This document shows, one piece after another, positions 1 through 5,540 of a DNA stretch of 11,191 nt. The stretch's first letter is position 1. Each line of letters starts with the position of its first letter. Source of the stretch: Minisyncoccota bacterium (GTDB lineage: Bacteria; Patescibacteriota; Minisyncoccia; Minisyncoccales; Minisyncoccaceae); contig JAQVBN010000010.1 of the NCBI GenBank assembly GCA_028690275.1, positions 1 through 11,191 of the forward strand, in the 5' to 3' direction. The translations under genes and the position numbers were made by a program. Below the pieces are notes generated by a model. That model worked only from the letters and a program-made list of their open reading frames with translations. It was not told where the DNA came from and made no database searches.

Positions 1-7
1 AATATAG

Positions 8-886
8 TTATAAAACATCATTTTCTTTTAAATAATAACAACAAATAATACTATCTGGTCCAAGATGACAACCAATTATTGGATTAATATCATCAATAAA
101 TAAAATTTTAGCATTAGGACACTCTACTGACAATTGATCTTTTAAATCTTCTGCCACCGGAAACATGTCAGCGTGTGTAATTGTAACAACCGCCTCTTTA
201 TTTTTTATCGCTCCTTCTAATTCCCTAACCACTGCTGCCGCCTTATCCTTTGCTTTAAACCTAATAGAAGCTACTTTAACTTTTCCTTTTTTAAGAACTA
301 GAAGTGGTCTAATCCCAACTTTTTCTAATTTTCTAATTAAACTTGCACCAGTATGACTCAACCTTCCATTTCTTTCTATCCATTTAGGATCTCCTGGAAA
401 ACCAACAACTTTTACACTTTCCTTAAAAACTTCTAATTTAAAAACTGTTTCCTCTCTTTCAAAACCTTTTTCTATAAACTCTACTGCCTTTAAGGCAATA
501 ATCCCTTCGGCTCCATCAGCACTAAAAGAATCTACAATAGACACTTTGTTTTGTTTATCTTTAGGAAGAAATTTAATCGCTTGAGTGGCAGAATTAAAAG
601 TTCCTGATATTCCTGTGCTCAAAACAATGCAAATAATCTCATCATGATTTTTAAAAGCTTCTTCAAAAGCTTCTTTAAAATCACCTACTGAAGGTTGGGA
701 TGTTTTTGGAGCAATATCAGATTTGGTCTCTCTCATTTTTTTAAACAATTCTTTTGTCTCTATACTTCCATTAATACCTTCTTCTGGCCAAAGAACTTTT
801 AAATTGACAACGCCTATATTATTTTTTTCTATTATTTCTTGCGGAATTGCTGCCGCTGAATCGGTAATAATTTTTATTTTACTCAT
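8..886 (-). CDS. fakB: DegV-family fatty-acid-binding protein (FakB-like), copy 2
   Basis: This 292-residue protein has the usual length of DegV/FakB proteins. These proteins bind one fatty acid and present its carboxylate to the kinase FakA, giving acyl-phosphate; they are cytosolic. Visible signatures are the N-terminal ITDSAA strand (residues 6-12), KTSQPS (61-66), the S-T-G-I-S-G-T loop (90-96) followed by NSA, GRLS (174-177) and the C-terminal GCHLGPD (272-278). By family comparison T62, S94 and H274 fit the residues that hold the fatty-acid carboxylate. The gene starts 8 nt before the end of the upstream paralogue, so translation is probably coupled, and it is the last gene of the lipid operon. 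The sequence is clearly diverged from its neighbour, which suggests different acyl-chain preference (inference). DegV membership is very secure; the FakB role rests on the adjacent fakA. Confidence 0.92.
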   Translation of the reverse strand: MSKIKIITDSAAAIPQEIIEKNNIGVVNLKVLWPEEGINGSIETKELFKKMRETKSDIAPKTSQPSVGDFKEAFEEAFKNHDEIICIVLSTGISGTFNSATQAIKFLPKDKQNKVSIVDSFSADGAEGIIALKAVEFIEKGFEREETVFKLEVFKESVKVVGFPGDPKWIERNGRLSHTGASLIRKLEKVGIRPLLVLKKGKVKVASIRFKAKDKAAAVVRELEGAIKNKEAVVTITHADMFPVAEDLKDQLSVECPNAKILFIDDINPIIGCHLGPDSIICCYYLKENDVL

Positions 887-1739
887 ATATAAAATTTATT
901 AATAATGATCCTGGACCAGCGTGAGCTCCTAAGACAACGTCAAGCATTTTAACATAGAGAACTTTAACATTTTTTAAAGTCTCTACTTTCTCTTTTAACT
1001 TTAAAGCTTCTATTTCGTTGTCTGCATGAACAATAACAACGCTGATTTTCCTTTTTGTTTTTTCAGTAAACTTCTTAAACTCTTCAAATATTGGCTCGGC
1101 TAGTTCTTTTACATTATTCCTTATAGTCATCGGCTTCAAAACGCCTCCTTTTTCTCTCATAACAATGCTAATATTAAAATCTTTCATTTTTTGGAGAACT
1201 ACTTGGGTAATTTTAGGGAATCTTCCTCCTGCCTGAACCCAAATTGGCTTATCATACATAAAAATGATAAAAGTATCTTTGATTCTTCGATTAAAATTAT
1301 CAATAATTTCCTTCAAACTTAAACCCCTAACAATATCTTCTTGAGCTTTAATTACTAAAAGCCCTTCGGCGGCTGAAGATTTTAAACTATCAAGAATATG
1401 AACTTTTGAAGCTTGAGCTCCTAAAAACTTAGTGGCTTGAATAGCAGAGTTGTAAGCTCCAGAAACTTTTGATGAAGTTGAAACATGAATAATTTCTTCA
1501 AAATCATTCAACTTTTCTTTGAACAATTTAACATAATCAGCAATTGATGGTTGAGACGTTTTAACAATACAATCAACTTTCTTTTTCTCTGCCATTCTCA
1601 TTTTTTCAAACATATTTCCAGGAAAATCTTTCACTTTTTCTAAATCAACCTTAAAACTTACAATTCCTATATTGTACTTTTCGATTATTTTTTCAGGTAA
1701 ATCTGCGGCGCTTTCAGTTGTTATTCCTAATTTTTTCAT
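879..1739 (-). CDS. fakB: DegV-family fatty-acid-binding protein (FakB-like), copy 1
   Basis: This 286-residue DegV/FakB protein is a carrier of a bound fatty acid for phosphorylation by FakA. Motifs in order are ITTESAADLPE (6-16), TSQPS (61-65), the S-S-K-V-S-G loop (89-94) with NSA, GGR (171-173) and GAHAGPG (271-277). T61, S93 and H273 match the carboxylate-holding positions expected for the family. The start ATG overlaps the fakA stop codon by 4 nt (ATGA), a classic coupled junction. The region after GGR (FPKITQVV) differs from the GRLS-type continuation in the neighbouring copy, and the loop before the SG pair is also different. Two FakB proteins for one FakA is also the arrangement in Staphylococcus aureus, where FakB1 and FakB2 differ in preference for saturated and unsaturated acids. 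Which chain each copy binds here cannot be read from sequence. Confidence 0.92.
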   Translation of the reverse strand: MKKLGITTESAADLPEKIIEKYNIGIVSFKVDLEKVKDFPGNMFEKMRMAEKKKVDCIVKTSQPSIADYVKLFKEKLNDFEEIIHVSTSSKVSGAYNSAIQATKFLGAQASKVHILDSLKSSAAEGLLVIKAQEDIVRGLSLKEIIDNFNRRIKDTFIIFMYDKPIWVQAGGRFPKITQVVLQKMKDFNISIVMREKGGVLKPMTIRNNVKELAEPIFEEFKKFTEKTKRKISVVIVHADNEIEALKLKEKVETLKNVKVLYVKMLDVVLGAHAGPGSLLINFIYE

Positions 1740-3484
1740 AACTTAATGTAAGAAATCATTAATCCTTTGTATCCCATTTTTAAACTCATTACTGGATCCG
1801 CTAAATTAGTAAAGGAAACAAGAACATTATATTGTTTTAATTGGTCTTTTAATTCCTTTGCCTTATTAATATTGTCATTATGAAGGATAACGGCTAAAGA
1901 TTTTCTGTTTCTACTTAAATCTTTTTTAACCTTATTAACTATTTTATCAACACACTCGTCCTTTTTAACCGTTTCTTGAAGGTTAAATTTTTCATTTGCT
2001 TCAACTAAAACAAATTTGTTCTTCTCCATAATCTTCTTTATCTTTTCATAATTTTTCTCAGAAGAAACATATGGAGAATTAATAACACCAACATTATTAA
2101 CTCTTAAGTCTTTGATTTCTTCTATTACTCCAGCCATATTCATTTGTTCATTGATCAAATCGATAGCTCTTAAAACAACAATTGCTTGTCCTGCCCCAAT
2201 ACTATGAGAATCTATAACCTCAACTTTGTCTTTGTCTCTTCCTAAAAGCTCTCTTCCTAAAATAGCAGAATCATAGGCATTAAAATAATCATTAGAAGAA
2301 GTAACACAAATTACTTGTTTGAAAGTTTTTAATTGTTTCTCAAAAGCTTCTTTAAAAAACTTTGGCTCTATTGGCTTTACTTCTGGAAGCTGTTTAAAGC
2401 CTTCTTCTTTTGCCGTTTTTAATTTTTCTGCCAAAGATTCTCCTTTAAGACTTTCTATTCCGTTCCAATCTATCTTATAAGGAATAGATTCTATTTGATA
2501 ATGTTGAATATTCTTTTCATTTAATCCAGAAGCTTCATCAATAACAAGACCTATTAGATTCTTTGCCACTGATTCTTCTCCTACAACTTCCCTAGCCATA
2601 TCTTCTATTCTCATTGTTTCCTCCTCTCCAAAAGTTCTAATAATATCTCTTACGATATATGGATCATCTGTATGAATATGTATTTTTGCCCTATTACCAA
2701 CTAAAATAATATCTAAACAGTCTCCTAAAGCGTTAAGTTTTTCTCTCATTCCATCTTCACTTAAAGATACTTCTCTCATTAAAGCCACTACTTCATATCT
2801 ATTAGTAAGTATTTGTATAAATCTCTTTGTTGTTGCTATTTTTTTCTTTGGTTTTTTAGAAAAAGGATTTTCATTTTCAACAAGAACATCATAATAGGTT
2901 TCTAAAATCATTAAAAATCCTAATCCTCCAGCATCAACTACCCCAGCCTTTTTAAGTAAAGGCATATTATTAGGAGTTTCTAAAAGAGCTTTATGGGCTT
3001 TTTTAAGAGCTTTTTCGAAATTATTAACAATATTCTTACTCTTTTTACTCTCTTCCTCCATTCCTTGAGCAAAAGCTTCCATAACATCTAAAATTGTTCC
3101 TTTTTTAGGATCTTGTACTGAGTCTTTTGCTCTTTCATATCCTTTTTGGAAAAGCAGAGAAAGTTCTGAAGCGCTTATATTAGAATCTTCCTTAATATCA
3201 TCAAAGAAACCAACCATAAAACCAGTATAAATAATACCGGTGTTTCCTTGGGCTGCCATAAGAGCACCTTCAAGAACAGCTTCTCCTAAATCTTTAAAGC
3301 TTTGAAAAGACTTTTTAAAGATAGCTTCTTTAACTCCACGAAGAGTTCCGTTTAGATTACTCCCTGTGTCTTGGTCTGGTACCGGAAACACATTTATTTT
3401 ATTAATTTCTTCTTTATCTCTTTCGATTCTTTCACAAGAAAAAAGAATCATCTTTTGCAGTTGTTTTTGCGTTAGTTCTTCCAT
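1736..3484 (-). CDS. fakA: Fatty acid kinase FakA (YloV/DAK2 family)
   Basis: This 582-residue protein has three regions, as in FakA, which phosphorylates FakB-bound fatty acid with ATP. The DhaL/DAK2 kinase domain (about 1-205) has NVFPVPDQDTGSN (31-43) with metal-binding D37 and D39, AAQGNTG (77-83) and VVDAGG (182-187). A middle domain (about 218-308) has HIHTDDP (269-275). A C-terminal DegV-like domain (about 309-582) lacks the lipid-site motifs TSQPS, GGR and HxGPG. The usual PVPDGDTG glycine is Q38, and the Cys expected in the middle-domain YCTEF stretch is absent (RYEVVALM, 229-236). I chose the start at 3484: this ATG gives the normal FakA N-terminus, lies 2 nt after the upstream stop, and an open extension to 3664 would only translate the upstream gene in another frame. 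No dhaK is present, so dihydroxyacetone kinase is unlikely. Confidence 0.9.
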   Translation of the reverse strand: MEELTQKQLQKMILFSCERIERDKEEINKINVFPVPDQDTGSNLNGTLRGVKEAIFKKSFQSFKDLGEAVLEGALMAAQGNTGIIYTGFMVGFFDDIKEDSNISASELSLLFQKGYERAKDSVQDPKKGTILDVMEAFAQGMEEESKKSKNIVNNFEKALKKAHKALLETPNNMPLLKKAGVVDAGGLGFLMILETYYDVLVENENPFSKKPKKKIATTKRFIQILTNRYEVVALMREVSLSEDGMREKLNALGDCLDIILVGNRAKIHIHTDDPYIVRDIIRTFGEEETMRIEDMAREVVGEESVAKNLIGLVIDEASGLNEKNIQHYQIESIPYKIDWNGIESLKGESLAEKLKTAKEEGFKQLPEVKPIEPKFFKEAFEKQLKTFKQVICVTSSNDYFNAYDSAILGRELLGRDKDKVEVIDSHSIGAGQAIVVLRAIDLINEQMNMAGVIEEIKDLRVNNVGVINSPYVSSEKNYEKIKKIMEKNKFVLVEANEKFNLQETVKKDECVDKIVNKVKKDLSRNRKSLAVILHNDNINKAKELKDQLKQYNVLVSFTNLADPVMSLKMGYKGLMISYIKL

Positions 3485-3486
3485 AG

Positions 3487-4110
3487 TTATTTTTTCTTTT
3501 TTCCGATCTTCTTTAGATAATTCTTTACTAAATCTTGAGCTCCAAGCCCTACAGCTAAACCAAAAGCTAAAGCAAGAGCTGCCACTACTCCAATAAATAA
3601 AGTCATTATTAGATCGGGAACAATTTGAAGTTGATAAAGAATGGCAAGTGTCGCCAAAATCCAAGTAGCAGAACTTAAAATTTCAGAAAGATCTCCTGAA
3701 TATTTTAAATCTTCACTCGGAAAAACAATCTTTTTGGAAAATTCAGCAATAAATACTGCTAAAATAAAAACAATAGAAGAAATAAAAATGTTAGGATAAT
3801 ACTCTACAATATTTAAGAAAAATTCTCCCAAAACACTCAAATTTAAAATCTCACTTGAAATCATACAAGCCACAAGAAGTAGATATACTTGCACTATAAC
3901 GCCAAACACCCGAGAAGCATTCAACCTTGCGTTATATCTTTCAAAAAAATGATGCCATCCTAAGTTTTTTGTTGCTTGATTTAATCTAAGATTCTCAAGA
4001 AAATTTTGAGAAATTTCACCCATCTTTCGAGAAAAAATAATTCCTACGATAAGAACTATAGTTGCCCAAAATAAGTTTGAAACAATACTTGTTATAACCG
4101 TTAATTCCAT
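3487..4110 (-). CDS. Small MscS-type conserved-TM-helix membrane protein
   Basis: This 207-residue integral membrane protein has about five hydrophobic segments (roughly 9-25, 68-85, 107-128, 143-160, 164-190). The last helix, A-L-A-L-A-F-G-L-A-V-G-L-G-A-Q-D-L (178-194), resembles the glycine/alanine-rich pore helix of MscS and the 'conserved TM helix' repeats found in mechanosensitive-channel relatives. The MscS cytoplasmic beta and C-terminal cage domains are absent; the protein ends in a basic tail (KNYLKKIGKKKK). It could be a stripped-down channel, an osmotic sensor, or a structural membrane protein. It sits inside the lipid operon, 35 nt after the carS-like stop and 2 nt before fakA, so its expression is tied to phospholipid synthesis. 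The 35-nt leader has no Shine-Dalgarno but carries a 13-nt A-rich motif (4125-4137) also found before nusA. The family is moderately sure, the function unknown. Confidence 0.7.
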   Translation of the reverse strand: MELTVITSIVSNLFWATIVLIVGIIFSRKMGEISQNFLENLRLNQATKNLGWHHFFERYNARLNASRVFGVIVQVYLLLVACMISSEILNLSVLGEFFLNIVEYYPNIFISSIVFILAVFIAEFSKKIVFPSEDLKYSGDLSEILSSATWILATLAILYQLQIVPDLIMTLFIGVVAALALAFGLAVGLGAQDLVKNYLKKIGKKKK

Positions 4111-4145
4111 AATTTAAAATTTACTTTTTACTTATTAATCTTAAC

Positions 4146-4697
4146 TCACCATTTGGCATTATGCAAGCCTAAAATGTATCCAAGTCGATTAAAAACACTA
4201 TGGATAATAAATGTTTGAATAAAGATTATTAACCAAATAGATAGATCTAAATGAATAAAACCTTGTAAAACAATAAAGGTTCCAAAAACATAATTTGTTT
4301 GATCGAAAGGAATGAAGGGGGCTCCTGGACGTAAGTTTAATTGTCTTTTAATAAAAGCAAAGATTAAATCTCCTAAAACTACACCTATCGAAAAGATTAT
4401 CCCAAAAACAAAAGAATTCCATTTTAAATAATCAAAACCAATAATCTCATATAAATGAAAACTATTATTAAGCAAGAAAAATAAAGAAATTAAAAAAGTT
4501 CCTAAAATAATAATTCCTATCGCCCCTCTCCATGTTTTATGAGAACCAAAAATCTCTCTATTTCTAAACACTTTATTGTTATCAATTGGAATAGCCAATC
4601 CTTCCAATACTTTAAGTTTGTTTAATAAAGGAGGAACGGCATTAGCAAGATAGGCTGGAGCAAAAAAATATATTGTTGCTAAAAGAACATTAATCAT
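4146..4697 (-). CDS. carS: CarS/DUF46-family lipid cytidylyltransferase (CDP-archaeol synthase family)
   Basis: This 183-residue membrane enzyme belongs to the CDP-archaeol synthase family, a distant relative of bacterial CdsA. The family uses CTP to activate a phosphatidic-acid-like lipid. Motifs seen are PAYLAN (14-19), PID (37-39), GSHKTWRG (51-58), VLGDLI (107-112), KRQLNLRPGAPFIPFDQ (117-133) and the C-terminal N-R-L-G-Y-x-L-G-L ending in W183. Several hydrophobic helices surround these motifs. Length fits the family. Its ATG overlaps the plsY TGA by 4 nt, so the two are translated together. In archaea the substrate is an ether lipid; next to PlsY, which makes ester lipids, the likely product here is CDP-diacylglycerol (inference from context). 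No ether-lipid synthesis gene is visible in the window. Family membership is secure; substrate is not. Confidence 0.85.
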   Translation of the reverse strand: MINVLLATIYFFAPAYLANAVPPLLNKLKVLEGLAIPIDNNKVFRNREIFGSHKTWRGAIGIIILGTFLISLFFLLNNSFHLYEIIGFDYLKWNSFVFGIIFSIGVVLGDLIFAFIKRQLNLRPGAPFIPFDQTNYVFGTFIVLQGFIHLDLSIWLIIFIQTFIIHSVFNRLGYILGLHNAKW

Positions 4698-5272
4698 AAT
4701 TTTAATTCTTTTTGATTATATAATCGATAAACATTCTCTCTATGAGTCCAAAGAATTATTAAGAAAAATGCCACACCTAAAAAGAAATAATCTAAAGAAT
4801 GTGTATGAAACCAAAAAAGAAAAGGCACAAAAAATGCCAAAACTAAATTAACCAAGCTCATAATTTTTGTTGTTTTAAGTAAAACAATCCATAAAGCAAT
4901 TAATGAAACAAAGACAATTGGTCCCAAAAAAACAAAAAGAGCAGGAACGAAGGTTGCCACCCCTTTTCCTCCTTTAAACTTAAGCCATATAGGGAAAATA
5001 TGTCCTAAAACAGGAATAATAGCAATAATAGCAATTTGCCATTCTAGTGTTAAAAAAGTAAAAGCTAAATAAATAGGTAAAGCCGCTTTAAGTGCGTCTA
5101 AAAGAGCAACTACAATCGCCCATTTCAAACCCAAAGCTCTTGAAACATTTGTAGCTCCCGTACTTCCGCTTCCTATTTTTTGAATATCTATCTTATGAAG
5201 TTTTGCTGCTAAATATCCAAAAGGTATAGAACCTAATAAATATGACAACAAAACTAGTAAATAAAAAGTCAT
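4694..5272 (-). CDS. plsY: Acyl-phosphate:glycerol-3-phosphate acyltransferase PlsY
   Basis: This 192-residue membrane enzyme transfers an acyl group from acyl-phosphate to glycerol-3-phosphate, giving lysophosphatidic acid. All three PlsY signatures are present: GSIPFGYL (14-21) followed by GSGSTGATNV (34-43); GHIFPIWLKFKGGKGVAT (90-107), the glycerol-phosphate-binding loop; and HRENVYRL (177-184) with the late glutamate E189. About seven hydrophobic helices fit the family. The common GSGN asparagine is serine (S37); I recall this GSGSTG form from cyanobacterial PlsY, so it is probably benign. It is the first gene of the operon and its predicted promoter lies directly before the ATG with almost no leader. 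FakA/FakB further down supply exactly its acyl-phosphate substrate, which explains why they are co-transcribed. Confidence 0.95.
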   Translation of the reverse strand: MTFYLLVLLSYLLGSIPFGYLAAKLHKIDIQKIGSGSTGATNVSRALGLKWAIVVALLDALKAALPIYLAFTFLTLEWQIAIIAIIPVLGHIFPIWLKFKGGKGVATFVPALFVFLGPIVFVSLIALWIVLLKTTKIMSLVNLVLAFFVPFLFWFHTHSLDYFFLGVAFFLIILWTHRENVYRLYNQKELKL

Positions 5273-5277
5273 TAAAT

Positions 5278-5308
5278 ATTATATATCATTTTTAAAGATT
5301 ATTTTCAA
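5278..5308 (-). promoter_or_regulatory. Promoter of the plsY-carS-fakAB operon
   Basis: On the minus strand, TTGAAA (5303-5308) is followed 17 nt later by TATATA, or 19 nt later by TATAAT, within TATATAAT (5278-5285). Only 5 nt separate this box from the plsY ATG, so transcription would start at or within a base or two of the start codon. No Shine-Dalgarno could fit. This is the only good promoter found before the six-gene run. Confidence 0.6.
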
Positions 5309-5357
5309 TAATAAATATTTTTATTAAATAAAACTTATTATTGTTATTATTAAGGCG

Positions 5358-5377
5358 GTGGAAAAGTGGAAAAGTGG
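5358..5377 (+). repeat. Three GTGG boxes with an 8-bp period
   Basis: GTGG occurs at 5358, 5366 and 5374, the first two copies each followed by AAAA and the last by TTTT. Repeated GTGG boxes with A-rich spacers resemble operators of the regulator MraZ, but those I know usually have a period near 10 bp and stand before mraZ or the division cluster, and no such gene is here. The function is therefore unknown. Confidence 0.55.
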
Positions 5378-5443
5378 TTTTAATCTTTATTTTTAAAGAA
5401 ATTGATGGTGTATAAAATAGTGATAAATTGATCTTTTAAAAGA

Positions 5444-5502
5444 GGATAAAAAATGGAAAATAGTTGAAATCTTTTTCTTCGCATTTTTACAACTTTTTAT
5501 CC
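5444..5502. repeat. Inverted repeat, possible long hairpin
   Basis: GGATAAAAA (5444-5452) pairs perfectly with TTTTTATCC (5494-5502). An inner GTTG (5463-5466) can pair with CAAC (5490-5493), leaving a 10-nt bulge on one side. No T-run follows on either strand, so a simple terminator is not well supported. It could be a 3' structure of the ATPase mRNA or part of a small RNA. Confidence 0.45.
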
Positions 5503-5540
5503 AATAGGCTGTAAGTATTTTTTACACATCTTTTAAACAG

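Follow-up and report, generated by a model that had tools for sequence, protein, structure and literature searches.

A probable fatty-acid salvage and lipid-precursor operon in a patescibacterium in which fatty acid synthesis was not found

We analyzed an 11,191-nucleotide contig (JAQVBN010000010.1; contig C23 in our numbering) of a Minisyncoccota bacterium, hereafter the window, and focused on six genes with a proposed role in membrane lipid supply. The host genome (G000) comprises 523,799 bases in 73 contigs, with an estimated completeness of 90.4%. All six genes are co-oriented on the minus strand: plsY1 (4694..5272), encoding an acyl-phosphate:glycerol-3-phosphate acyltransferase; a carS-like gene (4146..4697) for a CTP:lipid cytidylyltransferase, the proposed stand-in for cdsA; a gene for a small all-helical membrane protein (3487..4110); fakA (1736..3484), encoding fatty acid kinase; and two copies of fakB (879..1739 and 8..886), encoding DegV-family fatty-acid-binding proteins. 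Overlaps of 4 nt join plsY1 to carS and fakA to the first fakB, the two fakB copies overlap by 8 nt, and the small membrane gene lies 35 nt from carS and 2 nt from fakA. The open reading frame (ORF) map and Pfam confirmed this order and the 4-nt and 8-nt overlaps, which a preliminary description of the window had already reported, and Pfam matches backed the family of each gene, upholding its assignments to PlsY, CarS-like, FakA and FakB. Every cluster protein except the small membrane protein has a relative among solved structures. Judged by the overlaps and by the order conserved in relatives, the six-gene cluster is a real, conserved operon.

The FakA protein carries a Dak2 domain (PF02734, 1.3e-30), the FakA middle domain (PF21645) and a DegV/FakB-related C-terminal domain (PF02645, where the match covers positions 2-151 of 280), in that order, which is the three-domain plan of SaFakA (PMC9136124). 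It aligned with solved SaFakA chains (7rm7, E 5.5e-32; 7w7h, 2.9e-35), its PDQDTG nucleotide/Mg loop falling on PDGDTG of 7rm7 and its middle-domain HIHTDDP, with HIH kept, on HVHTEDP of 7w7h. D37, D39, H269 and H271 were invariant in the FakA alignment (A1); this catalytic-residue check covered the Asp pair and the His-x-His motif, the third catalytic residue of SaFakA being Cys240. The protein scored 147.4 bits with the NCBIfam equivalog model NF038248, under the cut-off of 975, and is thus not an equivalog of the Staphylococcus enzyme. A longer ORF opening at a TTG at 3664 was rejected because the ATG at 3484 comes 2 bases past the preceding stop and opens the conserved domain. Both FakB proteins belong to the DegV fold family and resemble solved FakB proteins: the first (PF02645, 8.4e-43) aligned with solved DegV and FakB1 chains, and the second (PF02645, 1.7e-51) with FakB1 (6nm1, E 2e-25). 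Their scores with the NCBIfam FakB1 equivalog model NF038249 were 126.8 and 98.1 bits, below its cut-off of 350.

The PlsY1 protein matched PF02660 (4.6e-47), exceeded the TIGR00023 cut-off (169.8 vs. 137.2 bits) and aligned with the solved PlsY structure 5xj5 (E 2.6e-32). In the reference aaPlsY, S35, R45, K104 and N180 clamp the phosphate, S142 and H177 serve glycerol-3-phosphate (G3P), and the side chains of H92 and T41 contact acyl-phosphate (PMC5700162). The residue map of the window's PlsY1 retains S35, T41, R45, H92, K104, H177 and N180, with S142 replaced by N.

The CarS-like protein matched PF01864 at 80.8 bits (1.5e-22; cut-off 22), and its score with the NCBIfam equivalog model NF003114 was 106.4 bits against a cut-off of 148. 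It aligned with CDP-archaeol synthase 5guf (E 1.3e-5), and F, D, Q and N of its FDQTN motif were invariant in 15 aligned sequences, the window's included. A CdsA signature was not found: CTP_transf_1 matched the carS gene weakly and in part (169-230 of 264). The archaeal pathway was likewise not indicated, PF01884 (geranylgeranylglyceryl phosphate (GGGP) synthase) being unmatched in the window's own genome.

The contig ends 7 bases past the last fakB stop (1..7). In four genomes of the same genus (G001, G002, G003 and G005), two more PF02660 genes, plsY2 and plsY3, sit at this place, directly after fakB, with overlaps (measured in G001 and G002) of 11 or 14 nt and then 4 nt; in G003 and G005, the cluster is divided between two contigs. 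The operon therefore extends past the window, with three PlsY genes in intact relatives, and the two extra plsY genes were invisible to the preliminary description because the contig stops where it does. One cluster piece of the same genus (G003:C1, L119) has one fakB, not two, between fakA and plsY2. In G014, a 460-aa open frame had suggested a PlsY2-PlsY3 fusion; it proved to be two separate ORFs.

We compared the gene order across the best 80 of 157 confirmed relatives of the locus, matching gene names and disregarding strand. Of these loci, 44 were patescibacterial-type (37 labelled as Candidatus Paceibacterota, Parcubacteria, Nealsonbacteria and other patescibacteria, and seven labelled only 'bacterium' and placed by list rank) and 36 came from other phyla. 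The eight-gene order plsY1-carS-msc-fakA-fakB-fakB-plsY2-plsY3, where msc is the small membrane gene, was found in 12 of the 44 patescibacterial-type loci when a missing or extra small ORF was allowed, and in none of the 36 others; several patescibacterial-type loci without the full order end at a contig edge. The gene order, whose conservation the preliminary description had proposed as a check, recurs in the family. The shorter order plsY1-carS-msc-fakA occurred in 16/44 patescibacterial-type loci and carS-(small transmembrane gene)-fakA in 29/44, whereas carS was near fakA in 0/36 loci of other phyla, which argues that the carS-msc-fakA order is not due to chance.

To place the operon in its metabolic context, eleven families were searched in 60 genomes: the window's own, five of the same genus, 15 more of the family and 39 of the order. 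Of 14 control genomes, each search was positive in 7 to 14, and those for PlsX, ketoacyl synthase, acyl carrier protein (ACP), CdsA and PF01553 (the PlsC/PlsB type) in 8 to 14. PlsX was matched in 0/60 genomes. Ketoacyl synthase was matched in 2/60, one of them a weak partial match within the family (G011) and none in the genus, FabH not being searched separately; ACP was also matched in 2/60, none in the family. The only CTP_transf_1 match of the window's own genome is the carS gene, and a convincing CdsA was found only in G043. As the preliminary description had predicted, fatty acid synthesis and cdsA were thus missing from the matches: PlsX, ketoacyl synthase, ACP and CdsA were unmatched in all six genus genomes. 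It had also expected plsC to be present, and here the expectation failed, since PF01553 was matched in 24/60 genomes and 7/21 of the family, and in 0/6 of the genus (other acyltransferase families were not searched). Six genus genomes all without PlsC at 85-97% completeness are not plausibly an assembly accident.

The families that the operon would require were widespread. Dak2 was found in 32/60 genomes, PlsY in 33/60 and GpsA in 27/60, each in 21/21 of the family; CarS was found in 36/60 (20/21 of the family) and a PgsA-like CDP-alcohol phosphatidyltransferase in 44/60 (20/21). The window's own genome has both GpsA and the PgsA-like enzyme. PlsC was unmatched in 14 family genomes. Twelve of these show two or more PlsY matches; in the two exceptions, G000 and G004, a contig end interrupts the sequence at or in fakB. 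In G000, G004 and G019, the contig with the only PlsY copy breaks off inside the fakB genes or immediately past them.

Residue signatures read at aaPlsY positions 35, 41, 45, 92, 104, 142, 177 and 180 divided the PlsY proteins into three groups. The Y1 signature was STRHKNHN in 21/28 sequences, the window's included, and STRHKSHN, as in aaPlsY, in three more; Y2 read SLRHRRHR in 15/18 and Y3 WSKHRTRP in 18/24, position 45 varying in the remainder. H92 was kept in 27/28 Y1, 18/18 Y2 and 23/24 Y3 sequences. Y2 proteins keep S35 and R45 (18/18) and H177 (16/18), with arginine at K104, S142 and N180, while Y3 proteins have W at S35, R at H177, P at N180 and K at R45 (18/24; R in three). T41 is replaced by L in most Y2 and by S in Y3, and GGKG by a GGRG that is invariant throughout both alignments. 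Read in this way, the acyl-phosphate histidine is retained while the G3P pocket has been remodelled in Y2 and has largely disappeared from Y3. Y2 (110.6 and 100.2 bits) and Y3 (101.0 and 106.3 bits; two of each scanned) scored below the TIGR00023 cut-off of 137.2; with this shortfall and the altered clamp they do not class as G3P acyltransferases, and by sequence they are still PF02660 proteins. A predicted Y3 model matched the PlsY fold (5xj8, E 1.4e-7, TM 0.70-0.74).

A maximum-likelihood tree was built from 84 of 88 aligned rows, excluding four PlsY fragments shorter than 170 aa and trimming proteins longer than 300 aa to their first 235 residues. In it, all 28 Y1 sequences share a branch (99/93), as do all 24 Y3 sequences (91/95), and the 18 Y2 sequences lie within a 22-row branch (99/96) whose other four rows had been set apart as odd; one further odd row, from Nealsonbacteria, is sister to Y3. 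The groups had been named from residue signatures beforehand, so the tree and the labels are not fully independent. On sequence grounds, PF02660 contains PlsY2 and PlsY3 as distinct, ancient lineages.

A direct connection between Y3 and the kinase was found in four of the 44 patescibacterial-type loci (L181, L182, L184 and L186). There, one frame of 763-867 residues encodes an N-terminal Y3-type PlsY followed by the Dak2, FakA middle and DegV domains; L182 is Candidatus Nealsonbacteria RBG_13_42_11. In another Nealsonbacteria locus (L183), a Y3-related gene lies directly 5' of fakA. Because the Y3-type PlsY is fused to the kinase that would make acyl-phosphate, the Y3 lineage would receive acyl-phosphate from FakA, whether as enzyme or as dock. 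These fusions, together with the nearly invariant H92, suggest that acyl-phosphate probably feeds Y2 and Y3 as well as PlsY1.

Some relatives carry further genes in or near the cluster. In L227 (496-2787; G034), the carboxyltransferase domain of an acyl-CoA carboxylase and a Y2-type PlsY domain are joined in one 763-aa ORF, and L113 and L127 have carboxyltransferase and biotin carboxylase genes near plsY2. Two relatives from outside the family have a thiolase gene close to fakA (L126:7923-9041 and L127:5360-6481), and L113 contains mevalonate-pathway genes. In L128 (G030:C35), L164, L176 and L178, a gene for PcrB (GGGP synthase) stands between PlsY2-like and PlsY3 genes beside carS-msc-fakA, so that archaeal ether-lipid and acyl-phosphate genes lie side by side; L128 and L178, which share a contig, also have genes for a polyprenyl synthase, a UbiA prenyltransferase and a geranylgeranyl-reductase-like protein.

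Taken together, we consider it likely that the operon serves fatty-acid salvage and lipid-precursor synthesis in a patescibacterium for which fatty acid synthesis was not found. The gene content, gene order and absences on which this proposal draws are established at the sequence level, in six genomes of the genus, the window's own being about 90% complete. FakB proteins would bind free fatty acids, and FakA would phosphorylate the bound fatty acid to acyl-phosphate. PlsY1 would then transfer the acyl chain onto G3P supplied by GpsA, yielding lysophosphatidic acid. The named families make this route from free fatty acid through acyl-phosphate to lysophosphatidic acid well supported, and this part of the pathway in the preliminary description stood. 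Its expectation of PlsC for the second acylation failed, since PF01553 was unmatched throughout the genus. The best candidates for adding the second chain would be PlsY2 and/or PlsY3, enzymes of the acyl-phosphate type encoded just past the contig cut in sister genomes; we infer this role because PlsC was unfound in the genus and family genomes show at least two PlsY genes or a contig-cut copy. CarS, replacing CdsA, would use CTP to activate the resulting phosphatidic acid, and a separately encoded PgsA-like enzyme would attach the head group. That CarS may act on a diacyl lipid is favored because carS overlaps plsY1, the family has no GGGP synthase above cut-off and CdsA is lacking. The acyl chains would come from outside the cell, be it from the medium, dead cells, the community or a host. 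An archaeal host, its membranes being isoprenoid, would not provide them through theft of whole lipids. The complete scheme is more tentative, and we put it forward as possible: in lineages without ACP, PlsX, PlsC and CdsA, acyl-phosphate from FakAB might serve PlsY1 at sn-1 and Y2 and/or Y3 at sn-2, one of them joined to the kinase in some lineages, where a single complex would both make and consume acyl-phosphate, with an archaeal-type CarS finishing the precursor.

Several observations weigh against the overall reading of the operon. PlsY was not seen in 15/44 patescibacterial-type loci, within the DNA fetched around fakA, and Y2 and Y3 were unseen in the window's own genome, its contig ending after the last fakB. 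Two or more PlsY matches are present in six of the seven PlsC-bearing family genomes too (in the seventh, G019, a contig end interrupts the cluster), so Y2 and Y3 are not a simple replacement for PlsC; the coexistence speaks against a strict swap. G033, an order member 98% complete, has one PlsY1-type gene and no PlsC, FakA or CarS match, which shows that a lone PlsY without a partner exists. In Y3, the G3P-site residues S35, H177 and N180 are gone, and to judge from these positions the protein may be non-catalytic. The archaeal CarS enzymes studied strongly favor isoprenoid lipid, A. fulgidus CarS preferring it over phosphatidic acid and failing to complement an E. coli cdsA mutant (PMC9385802). 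A serious possibility, though still a doubtful one, is that PlsY2 and PlsY3 are non-enzymatic membrane docks or acyl-phosphate holders for FakA and FakB, the second chain being added by PlsY1 or by an unrecognised acyltransferase. The substitutions in the Y3 pocket and the coexistence of PlsC with multiple PlsY genes would fit such a role, and the Y3-FakA fusion would tether the kinase to the membrane. However, Y2 keeps its serine, arginine and both histidines, its three new arginines suggest a phosphate site that is reshaped rather than dead, and Y3 retains H92 and the GGRG motif almost without exception.

The remaining explanations appear less probable. One is that no second acylation takes place: lysophospholipids would be made and used, CarS would activate lysophosphatidic acid, and diacyl lipid would be either not made or scavenged whole. 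The absence of a PlsC match in the genus and the reported enrichment of lysolipids with candidate phyla radiation (CPR) bacteria (PMC7242380) are consistent with this reading, but it leaves three PlsY genes per genome unexplained, and we regard it as unlikely. We think it similarly unlikely that the operon mainly recycles the cell's own or partly self-made acyl pool, built by CoA-based, ACP-independent synthesis, rather than exogenous fatty acids. The acyl-CoA carboxylase genes beside or fused to plsY2 outside the family, the thiolase gene that adjoins fakA in L127 and lies within 6 kb of it in L126, and the FabG/FabK/FabA-like and AccC genes of Minisyncoccus archaeiphilus (PMC12281837) point in that direction; ketoacyl synthase and ACP, however, were unmatched in the genus, and no carboxylase was found among the scanned ORFs of the family clusters (not every ORF was scanned). 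Least probable, in our assessment, is that CarS marks an archaeal-type ether-lipid route or the use of lipid from a methanogen host, with fatty acids as a side branch. CarS does belong to the archaeal CDP-archaeol synthase family, PcrB lies inside the same cluster in three relatives, one with the additional isoprenoid genes mentioned above, and described members of Minisyncoccaceae, the likely family of this genome, parasitise Methanospirillum. Yet PcrB exceeded the cut-off in 0/21 family genomes (7/60 genomes matched at E≤0.001, four of them above cut-off and none of these four in the family, where G016 has one sub-cut-off match). GpsA, which makes the bacterial enantiomer, was present throughout the family, and the 4-nt overlap ties carS to plsY1. 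An archaeal-lipid function of the operon was considered and is disfavored by the family-wide PcrB result.

The small membrane protein had been described as MscS-type, a label that proved too strong. It matched only the short transmembrane motif PF05552 (MS_channel_1st_1; 28.7 bits, cut-off 22) and scored 52.9 with the NCBIfam msc model NF033912 (cut-off 100). Its predicted model is all-helical (mean pLDDT 83.2) and had no fold match in the PDB at E≤0.001; an MscS core, that is, pore helix and beta domain, was not matched at the same threshold. We therefore rejected an MscS channel at 3487-4110. The gene lies directly 5' of fakA in 33/44 patescibacterial-type loci. The corresponding protein of Candidatus Microsyncoccus archaeolyticus, which NCBI taxonomy places in Minisyncoccaceae, shares 82% identity with its counterpart in G017 and 72% with those in G009 and G015, three genomes of the window's family; identity to the window's protein is 45%. 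From these values, Minisyncoccaceae is probably the family of the window's genome.

A single promoter for the cluster had also been proposed, and its expected place is the 268-bp gap 5' of plsY1 (5273..5540). A promoter scan found 39 matches in the window, no excess over shuffled sequences (mean 47.0, sd 7.7); the promoter is thus unsupported and remains a guess. The neighbouring genes (P-type cation ATPase, CCA-adding enzyme, nusA) do not belong to lipid metabolism. In relatives, pilin-like N-methylated proteins with a concanavalin-A-like lectin domain are encoded beside or inside the lipid cluster (L111:2524-3444 and L115:9250-10152), and a type IV secretion system (T4SS) pilin-like gene follows plsY3, above the Pfam cut-off in L110 and just below it in L111. 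These are possible surface proteins.

Published work has left related questions open. Probst et al. 2020 described some Nealsonbacteria with near-complete pathways that include part of type II fatty acid synthesis but no ACP processing enzymes, and with PlsY and PlsC in the absence of PlsX, leaving the source of acyl-phosphate open (PMC7242380). For M. archaeiphilus, Nakajima et al. 2025 listed a long-chain acyl-CoA synthetase and stated that how the organism 'synthesizes/acquires fatty acids ... remains unclear' (PMC12281837). The main texts of these two papers name neither FakA, FakB, fatty acid kinase nor DegV. Our literature search on acyl-phosphate or CDP-archaeol genes in CPR/Patescibacteria, whose coverage mostly excluded subscription papers, returned only archaeal lipid genes, namely GGGP and DGGGP (digeranylgeranylglyceryl phosphate) synthases in one Parcubacteria genome (Villanueva et al., PMC7852524), and a paper that names FakAB only in a general module (PMC13014828). 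PlsY and PlsC have been reported to accept both glycerol-phosphate enantiomers (Rieche et al. 2026, PMC13400652).

In these lineages, among them Nealsonbacteria, FakAB lies next to PlsY or is joined to it, and it is a specific candidate for both the acyl-phosphate source and fatty-acid acquisition. The operon thus makes two published open questions testable, and the two-strain co-culture of M. archaeiphilus, grown in medium with yeast extract and tryptone (PMC12281837), could take labelled fatty acids. It appears to offer an answer to how tiny, probably parasitic patescibacteria obtain membranes. If the proposed scheme is true, acyl-phosphate chemistry would reach beyond G3P through the PlsY2 and PlsY3 lineages and the PlsY3-FakA fusions, and the scheme would explain how patescibacterial parasites, some living on archaea with isoprenoid membranes, build bacterial membranes.

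Finally, we compared the operon with known systems. The small membrane protein shares with MscS-type mechanosensitive channels the short MS_channel_1st_1 helix motif, but neither their core nor a structural match at E≤0.001. The CarS-like protein resembles archaeal CarS (5GUF) in its PF01864 membership and in the aligned GD..F.KR...G...P..DQ core; it differs in that the second D of DQLD is N in 15/15 aligned sequences here, and in sitting within a fatty-acid operon, in a family without GGGP synthase above cut-off. As in the PlsX/PlsY/PlsC phosphatidic acid pathway, PlsY1 has a canonical PlsY active site, whereas PlsX and PlsC were not found here and sister genomes have two extra PlsY lineages with an altered G3P pocket. 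A further parallel is Staphylococcus, where FakA and FakB feed PlsY through the same families, an acyl-phosphate intermediate and several FakBs per FakA (PMC9136124). There, Fak accompanies a type II fatty acid synthesis pathway, and PlsX, acyl-ACP and PlsC are present; in contrast, the genus studied here has no ketoacyl synthase, PlsX, ACP or PlsC match, and its fak genes stand in one operon with plsY and a cytidylyltransferase gene.

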